Positions 5,811 through 8,507 of a stretch of 20,894 nucleotides of DNA are shown in pieces; the stretch's first letter is position 1; every line of letters begins with the position of its first letter. Origin of the DNA: Deltaproteobacteria bacterium (GTDB lineage: Bacteria > Chloroflexota > Dehalococcoidia > Dehalococcoidales > BS750m-G39); NCBI GenBank assembly GCA_030606505.1, contig JAUWGI010000003.1:1-20894 (forward strand), read 5' to 3'. Position numbers and translations under genes: made by a program. Below the pieces are notes generated by a model. That model saw only the letters and a list, made by a program, of their open reading frames with translations. It made no database searches and had not been told where the DNA came from.

Positions 5811-7265
5811 CTAACTCCCCTCCCTCAAGATATATACCCCGTCTCGCACCTCCACCAGGTCAGGATTCTCCAGCGGGAACGGGCTGTAAAGAATGTTCAC
5901 GTTCTTTTCCCTGATATATTCGGTATCAGTAGCGCCCTCCCTCAAAAACGCCGTAATCTCCATTGACTCCTCAACTCCCCAGGGGTAGGCTTTGGCGGTA
6001 TAAGTATATTGCCCCCCGCTTATGGGGACAAAAGACCAGGCAACGTAGGGGTTAAGCAGAACGATAGAATCTTGAGGCAACTCTTGGCCAATCCAGACAA
6101 AGTCATGATAGGTGGGAACATTAATCACGTGGTAATATCTCTCTTTGGCGTAGCCATCAATCCTCAGAACCAGGGAAAATGCCACCACCAGCGCCAGAGC
6201 CACATAGACCGGGAGCGCCCCCCAGCGCCACCGCTTAAAGAAGTCAAGACCCAGCTGGCGCAGCTGGCTTAAGCCGTAGCCGGCAATAAAAGCCATCAGG
6301 AGCATAACATAGAGCCAGCCCCTTTCGTAAAGGATATCGGGCCCTACATCAAACCACTGCCGGTAGAACTGCACAAAGAAAAGCAGGATAACGGTAGGTA
6401 CCAGGAGGGCGTAGTTGCGCCAGCCGCCCCTGGCTATCAGAAAACCAAAACCGATAACAGCCAGGGCTATCATTATATAGCCCAGCTGAGGCAGGGGAAT
6501 CGGAATAGCCGGTAATGGTATCTTTTCCGCGTTTATTATATTCTGTATTTCTCTCAATACAAAGGCCCGGTTCCACAGAAAGATAACAAAAGCCGAGAGC
6601 GGGACAAGCAGCAAGCAGGTAAGGGATGGCAGCACTTGCCGGAGTGAGCTCTTGGAAAAGATAATGTAAAAGATCAGGTAAATCACCAGGACAAAGCCCA
6701 CGGCTACAGCGGTGGTGCCATGAGTGAGAAACAGCGCGGCTAAGCTAATCACGATTAAAGGCAGCGGTCTCCAGTCTTTCTCCATTTTCTCCAGCAGTAT
6801 CAGACACAGAGGGAAAAAGACCAGCCCCAGCGTCACTGGAACCAGAAAAGCTGGCCCCAGGAATCTGACAGTGGTATGGATGAAGGTAGCGAAAAAGGCG
6901 GCTTCCAAGCCGAAGCCCCGCTTTCTGCCCCAGGCGTAAGCGACAAAGGCTATTATGCCCAGAACCAGTGCCGGCATCAGGCGGGCAAGCAGCAGCCAGG
7001 GCGAGCCGGTCGCCAGCAAGGCAGTGCCGAACCATATGTAATAGCCCGTCTCAGGGTGCCCCCCCACCTCCCACTGGCCACCCTGGAAGGGATGGGGGTA
7101 ATCAAGGCTACCGGTATTCAGAATCTGGGTGGTATGCCCCAGATGCATCCATTCATCCACATGGAGGGGATAGGGGTAATCGAGGCGGGGGTACAAAGCC
7201 ATATAGAAGGCGAGGGCAATAATGGCGACCAGTAATATAGTCTTAATTAAAGAAGCTCTACTCAA
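5811..7265 (-). CDS. GT-C superfamily membrane glycosyltransferase (ArnT/GT39-like)
   Basis: This 484-residue polytopic protein has about 10-12 hydrophobic segments. The first (ILLVAIIALAFYMALYP) leads into an outer loop with HVDEWMHLG. The acidic DE pair sits where GT-C enzymes carry the residue that contacts the polyprenyl-phosphate sugar donor. A soluble C-terminal domain of about 90 residues includes YHDFVWIGQELPQDSIVLLNPYVAW. Such enzymes move a sugar from a lipid-phosphate carrier to a protein, lipid or glycan on the outer face of the membrane. The acceptor is unknown here. The start is TTG at 7265 with only a weak GAGAG ribosome site; no ATG exists near the N-terminus. It is first in a two-gene unit with the DUF1616 protein. 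Oligosaccharyltransferase-like function is an alternative. Confidence 0.85.
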   Translation of the reverse strand: MSRASLIKTILLVAIIALAFYMALYPRLDYPYPLHVDEWMHLGHTTQILNTGSLDYPHPFQGGQWEVGGHPETGYYIWFGTALLATGSPWLLLARLMPALVLGIIAFVAYAWGRKRGFGLEAAFFATFIHTTVRFLGPAFLVPVTLGLVFFPLCLILLEKMEKDWRPLPLIVISLAALFLTHGTTAVAVGFVLVIYLIFYIIFSKSSLRQVLPSLTCLLLVPLSAFVIFLWNRAFVLREIQNIINAEKIPLPAIPIPLPQLGYIMIALAVIGFGFLIARGGWRNYALLVPTVILLFFVQFYRQWFDVGPDILYERGWLYVMLLMAFIAGYGLSQLRQLGLDFFKRWRWGALPVYVALALVVAFSLVLRIDGYAKERYYHVINVPTYHDFVWIGQELPQDSIVLLNPYVAWSFVPISGGQYTYTAKAYPWGVEESMEITAFLREGATDTEYIREKNVNILYSPFPLENPDLVEVRDGVYILREGS

Positions 7266-7307: not shown

Positions 7308-7375
7308 CCCTCTGGCGGGGCAAGGAAACCCCTCCCCCACTTATATCTTTTCCCGCCCGCCACCCTCTAAGGAAT

Positions 7376-7393
7376 AGGGCTAAAGCCCTTTTT
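7376..7393 (+). terminator. small terminator-like hairpin facing plus strand
   Basis: A 6-bp stem (AGGGCT/AGCCCT, 7376-7381 with 7384-7389) is followed by a run of five T residues ending at 7393. It has the form of an intrinsic terminator for plus-strand transcription, but no plus-strand gene precedes it in this region. It could stop an antisense transcript of the GT-C gene or be fortuitous. Confidence 0.3.
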
Positions 7394-7596
7394 ACCATCC
7401 CCCCTAACGGTTCTTTATTTTCCCATACCCACCCACCCTCATAAGCTCTTTACCCCAAAAAAACTTTGTTTTTCCGGGGGCCCCGTATCCGCTTCTGGAA
7501 CTTTCTTCCCCCACCCCTATTCAGTGGTAACGACATCCCCTTTTCCCCCCACCCATTAGGTTTCGCTCTTATCCCCCCCGTTTTAAGGGGTGTTAA

Positions 7597-7640
7597 AGAG
7601 GTCTGACCTCTGTAGGGCGGGAGGGTGGGAAATAAAACGC
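7597..7640 (+). repeat. 44-bp hairpin plus G-quadruplex repeat, copy 1
   Basis: The unit starts with the palindrome AGAGGT-CTG-ACCTCT, followed by GGGCGGGAGGGTGGG at 7615-7629 (four G3 tracts with single-base loops) and an A-rich tail ending AAAACGC. It matches copy 2 at 36 of 44 positions. All differences in the hairpin are in its loop, so the stem is intact in both copies. Confidence 0.85.
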
Positions 7641-7690
7641 CCAAAAGCAGGAAAAGGGTGTGGGGAAACCCCCGTCAAAAAGAATCTAAG

Positions 7691-7734
7691 AGAGGTTAAA
7701 CCTCTATTGGGTGGGAGGGTGGGAAGCAAAACGC
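7691..7734 (+). repeat. 44-bp hairpin plus G-quadruplex repeat, copy 2
   Basis: The palindrome AGAGGT-TAA-ACCTCT is followed by GGGTGGGAGGGTGGG at 7709-7723, again four G3 tracts with single-base loops, and a tail ending AAAACGC. Its start is 94 bases from that of copy 1, and its end lies 77 bases before the nucleotidyltransferase ATG. The G-rich strand is the coding strand of that gene, so any transcript starting upstream would carry the motif as RNA. Confidence 0.85.
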
Positions 7735-7811
7735 ACTCTAAAAACTGGGCAATCCCCCAATTTCTAGCTCATAGACACGACAACTAACTCTATGGTAATC
7801 TGTTCAATGCC

Positions 7812-8507
7812 ATGAAATGCTTGATACTGGCCGGGGGCTTTGGCACCAGACTCTACCCCCTCATCACCAACAAGTCAAAGGCGCTGCTGGAGTACAAGGG
7901 CAAACCGTTATTGAGCCACCTGGTGGACAGGGTTCCCCGGAACATAAAAATTATGGTCTCCACCAACCTCAAGTTTGAGTCTGATTTCCGTCAGTGGCAG
8001 CAGGGGGTGGATAGAGACATAGATCTCTGCGTCGAGGAAATCTGGAGTGACAAGCAGAAAAAGGGGGCCGTCGGCTCGCTCAACTTCTGGGTTAGCAACA
8101 GGGGCATTGACGAAGACCTGCTGGTCATCGCCGGTGATAACTACTTCGAGTTCGACCTCTCGCAGTTTATTGCCGCCTATGATGGCAATAACACCCTGGT
8201 TGCCGTCCACGATATCGGCGACAAGAGCCGGGCCAGCCAGTTCGGCGTGGTGCGTCTGGACGGTCACCGCCTGGCCGGGCTGGAAGAAAAGCCGGCTCAA
8301 CCCAAGTCCAGCCTCATTGCCACCGCCTGCTATATTTTCCCTCCCCGGATATTCCCCCTGTTAGGCCGGTACTGCTCCAGCGGCAAGCGGGACAATCTGG
8401 GCAGCTTCATCTCTCACCTCATTGAGGTTGACCATGTTCACGGCTACCCGTTTACCGAGCCCTGGTTTGATATCGGCAGCAATTACTCCTCAAGCCATAA
8501 GAAATGA
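7812..8507 (+). CDS. sugar-phosphate nucleotidyltransferase (RfbA/GlmU N-domain-like)
   Basis: This is a 231-residue NTP_transferase-family enzyme. It has the N-terminal nucleotide-binding signature LAGGFGTRLYPL, a KALLEYKGKPLL segment with the conserved Lys, and the metal-site acid in VIAGDNYFEFDL. EKP (residues 158-160) and the C-terminal WFDIGS motif are also present. These enzymes join a sugar-1-phosphate to an NTP to make an activated sugar. The exact sugar and base cannot be assigned. No ribosome site is visible before the ATG. The stop overlaps the next gene's start (ATGA). The C-terminus stops about 10 residues after WFDIGS, slightly short compared with relatives that continue with a helix. 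It heads an operon with two methyltransferase-like genes and a dehydrogenase-like gene, consistent with modified-sugar synthesis. Confidence 0.88.
   Translation: MKCLILAGGFGTRLYPLITNKSKALLEYKGKPLLSHLVDRVPRNIKIMVSTNLKFESDFRQWQQGVDRDIDLCVEEIWSDKQKKGAVGSLNFWVSNRGIDEDLLVIAGDNYFEFDLSQFIAAYDGNNTLVAVHDIGDKSRASQFGVVRLDGHRLAGLEEKPAQPKSSLIATACYIFPPRIFPLLGRYCSSGKRDNLGSFISHLIEVDHVHGYPFTEPWFDIGSNYSSSHKK

Follow-up and report, generated by a model that had tools for sequence, protein, structure and literature searches.

The hairpin/G-quadruplex (G4) units in the window, by which we mean the whole 20,894-nucleotide stretch analysed, belong to a dispersed repeat of this genome and its relatives. The reading that we prefer, with a probability of roughly 55%, is that they form a lineage-specific, REP/BIME-like intergenic mosaic repeat with a DNA hairpin and a predicted G4 as its core, that they act or drift at the DNA level, and that their polarity is the product of a survival filter. 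We think that the structure matters in the DNA and not in an mRNA leader.

Direct reading of the sequence showed that the two 44-bp copies at 7597-7640 and 7691-7734 are identical at 36 of 44 positions, and that the AGAGGT/ACCTCT stems and the four G3 tracts with single-base spacers lie where a sequence-only reading had placed them. Two single-base-loop G4 motifs are present in the 20,894 bases, against 0.02 expected by chance. The 44-bp copies were correctly described, but their extent was understated: the repeat continues beyond them, and the covariance model built from an alignment of 44 copies has 86 positions. From 5′ to 3′ the unit has an A-rich flank of about 13 nt (consensus AAAAGAAANTNA in the 44 copies), a hairpin whose 6-bp stem closes a 3-nt loop, a three-base spacer and the G4 motif. 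The tail behind the motif is A-rich, about 22 nt long (consensus AAGNAAAACNNCCNCTAAAAAN) and ends near CTAAAAA; a G run comes next. The distances of 77 and 215 nt between the units and the start at 7812 were also correct. The proposed sugar-biosynthesis operon was supported only in part: its first gene encodes a nucleotidyltransferase, and behind it a Pfam scan of three downstream genes found a methyltransferase and a Glu/Leu-type dehydrogenase.

Table 1. Features in and around the unit-bearing gap of the window.
Feature	Position	Strand	Evidence
Unit 1, whole repeat (flank, hairpin, G4 motif, tail)	7581..7666	+	Covariance model 67.9 bits, E 1.8e-18; among the 44 sequences used to build the model
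Unit 1 hairpin, 6-bp stem AGAGGT/ACCTCT, loop CTG	7597..7611	+	Sequence; stem covariation over copies
Unit 1 G4 motif GGGCGGGAGGGTGGG	7615..7629	+	Sequence; chance count; G4-aware RNA folding gives hairpin and G4 jointly
Unit 2, whole repeat	7675..7760	+	Covariance model 87.1 bits, E 2.9e-24; among the 44 sequences used to build the model
Unit 2 hairpin, 6-bp stem AGAGGT/ACCTCT, loop TAA	7691..7705	+	Sequence; stem covariation
Unit 2 G4 motif GGGTGGGAGGGTGGG	7709..7723	+	Sequence; chance count; G4-aware RNA folding
Unit 2 A-rich tail AAGCAAAACGCACTCTAAAAAC	7724..7745	+	Sequence; 44-copy alignment
Third, degenerate unit, interrupted hairpin AGAAGC / GCTTA, faces opposite way	7385..7496	-	16.8 bits, E 0.0053 for 7473-7385; arms by eye; subtype also elsewhere
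G4 motif of third unit GGGTGGGTGGGTATGGG	7438-7422	-	Sequence
Family E palindrome inside hairpin loop of third unit	7448..7488	-	Exact pattern match 7453-7488; only 4 flanking bases pair at this copy (L250)
Second kind of module, like design: hairpin AGGGCTTTAGCCCT, GGGTGGCGGGCGGG (7365-7352), then AAAAGATATAAGTGGGGGAGGGG	7329..7390	-	By eye; family C pattern
Downstream gene, nucleotidyltransferase (context only)	7812..8507	+	PF00483, E 2.5e-28
Gene across the gap, divergent (context only)	5811..7265	-	No Pfam match

The genome of the window (G000) is a draft of 835,553 bases, 67.5% complete, and our model search found at least 112 copies of the repeat in it. At least 148 copies each were found in G001 and G002, at least 119 in G006 and at least 108 in G004, and at least 21-37 in each of five further genomes of the family; these copy numbers are lower bounds because no more than 150 candidates were scored per genome. 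The repeat is thus present in 10 of the 11 genomes of the host's family, five of which hold more than 100 copies each, and the model search found none in the eleventh, G008. This family is known from environmental draft genomes, and those used here are 67-93% complete. A loose pattern matched 38 times in G000 and its reversal 0 times. Beyond the family, the repeat pattern did not occur in 90 genomes of the order's other families, and 399 further genomes of the phylum gave no model match at E 1e-4 in a search that used stricter filters and scored 11 candidates in each genome. The exact pattern, which misses variant copies, matched 72 stretches over 84,980 species (one genome each), all from four draft genomes of a single family. 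No match to the repeat turned up among phages, plasmids or viral contigs. We noticed that the records JAUVYB01 and JABMRW01 are titled Deltaproteobacteria and that records of the same family are titled Dehalococcoidia or Dehalococcoidales; one set of titles looks wrong.

The stem is kept as a pairing. Over 150 aligned copies 93.5% of the stem cells pair, and stem pairs altered on both sides amount to 73 cells versus 19.5 in shuffles and 1-11 in slid controls, a count that leans towards the stem because this alignment (150 of 190 matches) was fitted to the model. A MAFFT alignment of 44 copies, themselves gathered using a stem-like pattern, gave 12 such changes versus 3.2 in shuffles. The suggestion that the stem is maintained therefore stands, and the unit both recurs elsewhere and covaries in its stem.

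Copies mostly retain the four G3 tracts even when their loops differ in length. Their retention was judged on model hits because the pattern that gathered the first alignment already required G tracts and stem-like ends; the model used for these hits itself favours G tracts and stem. With this bias, the four tracts are intact in 171 of the 196 full-length copies (those of 202 rows that were long enough), and the remaining 25, which lack an intact motif, include some one G short and some missing a tract. The loop lengths of the 171 copies are 1,1,1 (n=130), 1,3,1 (n=19), 1,1,3 (n=15), 1,2,1 (n=6) and 2,1,1 (n=1). The variation thus concerns mainly the second loop, at 1-3 nt, or the third, at 1 or 3 nt, which indicates that length changes in intact copies fall in the loops. 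All six stem positions are paired in 118 of the 171 copies, and 18 different stem forms occur. In the 21 copies listed for other genera, loop 2 has 1-4 nt, and a tract is broken in three (L012 of G006, L014 and L023 of G007). G4-aware RNA folding predicted hairpin and G4 side by side, which is the output of an energy model and not evidence of folding; we infer that the G4 may fold in the cell.

By midpoint, 226 of the 227 profile hits are intergenic in 1.18 Mb of stretches that were chosen for holding units in three congeners (G000-G002), with genes called by our own codon-score script and not by a standard gene finder. A first context table covered 49 of 52 model hits, the three partial or lowest-scoring ones being omitted. 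The G-rich strand faces outward from the middle of the gap in 117 of 144 units (those of the 227 in gaps of 200-1500 nt), irrespective of gene orientation: units on the + strand occupy the right half of the gap and units on the - strand the left half. The bias was seen in divergent and in both same-direction arrangements, and convergent gaps hold only 9 units. At gene 3′ ends 53 units face outward versus 8 inward, and at gene starts 64 versus 19. All 24 pairs of opposite-strand neighbours within 400 bp are divergent and none is convergent; at wider spacing one convergent unit pair was found. Same-strand neighbours within 400 bp number 56, mostly 70-130 bp apart. Base skew shifts from C-rich to G-rich across unit-bearing gaps, and this shift is far smaller across same-direction gaps without units. 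This outward orientation rule is previously unreported. It can be counted, and theories of G4 stability or of transcription-linked deletion will all have to account for it.

Two other associations were tried and rejected. Unit strand related only weakly to local GC skew (58 against, 32 with), and gene strand confounds this relation. Among all gaps, units occur in 5/119 convergent versus 38/114 divergent ones, but in gaps of 200-1500 nt the figures are 5/19 and 34/79, with 55/151 for same-direction gaps. Since long gaps show no clear difference between convergent and divergent arrangements, an association with promoters is not claimed.

Sister modules share the polarity. Family C modules face outward in 28 of 34 cases and family D modules in 30 of 32 (for D, in gaps of 200-1500 nt). 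Gaps that lack units show this as well, and the polarity of family B is weaker (29/42). Adjacent modules of the A units, C and D diverge in 52 pairs versus 4 that converge. In the window gap the third unit and the C-type module face left, and units 1 and 2 face right. In gaps of G001 a B hairpin is followed by a G-rich C module 39-40 nt on, on the same strand; four pairs within 120 nt have this order and none has the reverse. Such a B hairpin and C module together look like another family of units built on the same plan.

Comparison of orthologous gaps suggests that units are gained or lost between related species. A unit was present in at least one species in 31 of the 171 gap pairs compared, in one species only in 11 and in both in 20. 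These comparisons are not independent, one gap being counted in three pairs, and the compared stretches were selected for holding units. The 20 shared cases also fit a function. A 45-bp gap in G000 corresponds to a 371-bp gap with two units in G001, in which a promoter-like TATAAT is kept. Among the 11 gaps without a unit in the partner (8 aligned), whole module arrays differ and a precise single-unit junction was not seen. At L067 (1066-1535) the units of two species are oppositely oriented in the gap. At L053, 125 nt in the left part of the single G000 unit are 97% identical to the first unit of G001 with its flank, and the right part of the G000 unit matches the flank of the second unit in G001 (81%) and G002 (87%). 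This single unit looks like a recombination product of two units, a case that rests on G001 for the left side because the left flank differs in G002. In one orthologous gap of G001 (C21:3765-5998, L109), a stretch of about 2.2 kb seems to hold a reverse transcriptase, possibly of a retron, with YADD read by eye. Units lie within 200 bp of contig ends in 31 of 217 cases versus 6.8 expected in the stretches of G000-G002, which were chosen for holding units; this count omits 10 units of G001 C15. The units may help to fragment these draft genomes.

The outward polarity is most simply taken as a survival filter. Units would spread, be lost and recombine within genomes. Transcription would enter a gap from its borders, and where it meets the G-rich strand as non-template, a G4/R-loop would form and the copy would be deleted. 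Copies whose G-rich strand serves the incoming polymerase as template would persist, and the outward polarity would result. The polarity may thus reflect the loss of copies transcribed with G-rich RNA. A study in E. coli reported a 270-354-fold higher mutation rate for a (G3T)8 repeat when its G-rich strand was the non-template one, an effect that concerned eight G3 tracts, and an orientation difference of less than 2-fold for another insert, apparently RET (PMC7023247). The filter explains the 3′ borders well. Polarity is also strong at gene starts, which readthrough would not be expected to reach, and the filter can account for these borders only if they see inward or antisense transcription. 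Five genomes with more than 100 natural G4-motif copies each, with variants in loop length, stem and orientation, make the selection, tolerance or purging of bacterial G4s testable by comparison.

A bolder alternative, which we consider possible yet clearly the less probable, takes the same geometry as a function. Outward module pairs would act as a polar barrier or insulator and stop transcription entering the gap from either side. The incoming polymerase would meet the predicted G4 on the template, and its RNA would be C-rich, with the hairpin and then a U-rich stretch; such an inbound RNA could also suit Rho or weak intrinsic termination. The independence of the polarity from gene orientation and its strength at gene 3′ ends agree with this. 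Terminator-like sites were found at 53 of the 227 units in the inbound direction, at 22 in the outbound direction and at 15 after base shuffling, a modest signal that leaves most units without such a site. A terminator should also favour convergent gaps, yet long gaps of this kind are not richer in units than divergent or same-direction ones, and in 11 of 31 orthologous comparisons the partner has no unit.

That same absence argues against the units being leader RNAs or riboregulators, in which a hairpin and an RNA G4 in the 5′ UTR would control the downstream gene, as the sequence-only reading had allowed. We regard this role as very unlikely. Same-direction gaps hold 57 units antisense to the gene and 34 in sense (p = 0.02). 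Of 85 starts, 68 have a sense unit whose end lies 45-350 nt upstream. The best sigma-70-like match falls between unit and start in 56 of these 68, versus 22.0 expected from composition-preserving shuffles; these promoters are predicted from consensus matches. Lying between promoter and start, sense to the gene, is therefore not a family-wide rule for the units, as judged on predicted promoters. Unit orientation that ignores gene direction, and a promoter mostly between unit and start, speak against a leader RNA. Units 1 and 2 of the window run in sense towards the start at 7812. A single, weak promoter match was found there, with 3 of the 6 bases of the -10 hexamer, so these two units could still be transcribed. 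G4-aware folding predicted -42 to -43 kcal/mol, versus -7 to -10 without the G4; the fold of 7560-7811 without G4 is ordinary (z -0.73), and a search of Rfam gave no match.

Comparison with known repeats places the units nearest to the REP/BIME/REPIN type. Like these, they are short, extragenic palindromic repeats with more than 100 copies in some genomes (at least 112 in G000), single or in mosaic arrays, and some neighbouring copies may count as inverted doublets. Unlike them, they carry a G4 motif joined 3′ of the hairpin, and their polarity is mostly outward. The REP head is defined in PMC2817692 as GTAG/GTRG 5′ of the palindrome. No such head precedes the palindrome in our consensus of 44 copies, whose 5′ flank is A-rich, and GTA occurs 3′ of the hairpin in part of these copies. 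It is accordingly highly improbable that the units are REPIN-type mobile doublets moved by a REP-associated (Y1, HUH) transposase, in spite of their high copy number, their extragenic palindromes and the uniform divergence of close opposite-strand neighbours. The Y1 transposase (PF01797; RAYT) was detected in 0 of 11 family genomes, all incomplete drafts, and in 5 of 14 control genomes, and the 56 same-strand neighbours outnumber the 24 divergent doublets. Mobilisation by Y1/RAYT was rejected on this count, and a TnpB-type partner likewise (0 of 11 family genomes). IS110 elements target REPs. In our search IS110 was above cut-off in 2 of the 11 family genomes, one of which is G008, which has no units.

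The units also resemble the rPQS of Methanomicrobiaceae as far as the accessible text of PMC8044849 goes, both being interspersed, near-identical intergenic G4 motifs with a variable central loop in one family of organisms. The rPQS are described there as having a 3′ C-rich tract partly complementary to the G4, and their orientation reportedly shows no correlation with the genes around them; that portion makes no mention of a polarity directed outward in the gap. Here, in contrast, a hairpin precedes the G4, and in the 44 aligned copies no complementary C-rich tract was found 3′ of it but an A-rich tail. Like MITEs, the units are small, non-coding and present or absent between relatives. The orthologous gaps compared yielded no precise single-unit junction that would show a terminal inverted repeat or target duplication, and a parent element was not found. 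The open-access literature that we searched, outside which most subscription papers lie, holds no report of this unit. RepRanger (PMC12306157) includes palindromes of Dehalococcoides mccartyi in its lists, and the word quadruplex is absent from its main text.

An intrastrand triplex, in which the G-rich strand would fold over to become the third strand of the hairpin, is hardly credible. Such motifs are common dispersed repeats in bacteria, with a hairpin, a G-rich third segment and a link to instability as far as the available part of PMC4666352 describes them, but here the G-rich strand is of one kind whether the stem is AGAAGT or AGAGGT (by eye) and fails to follow the purine strand of the stem when the stem changes, and the four G3 tracts mostly stay as loops lengthen. 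Family D beside the units, a palindrome followed by GGGATTAAGGGGGTGAGG, does resemble triplex-type dispersed repeats by eye.

Family E is a palindrome of about 40 nt that lies between hairpin-like arms of A units and of B hairpins. It is present in 8 of 101 genomes, three of them outside the host's family, and 12 copies lie in the fetched stretches of G000-G002. Its flanks have at least 6 contiguous paired bases in 12 of 30 fetched copies, versus 1.5% in the control; 4-5 bases pair in 13 of 30, a class without a control, and 3 or fewer in 5 of 30. These pairings point, tentatively, to the tip of the hairpin as a target for family E. Landing at the hairpin loop, if true, would imply that some unknown enzyme recognises the folded tips of hairpins in genomes in which no Y1 transposase was detected. 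A wider picture, which we find doubtful, would have gaps bracketed by one-way DNA-structure modules (A, C and D) as polar boundaries, where polymerase exits but its entry is hindered, and the hairpin as the landing site of element E. In other families of the order, variants of family E resemble paired changes by eye. At one copy of family E (G001 C39:458), the left half of a B hairpin is seemingly joined to the right half of an A unit.
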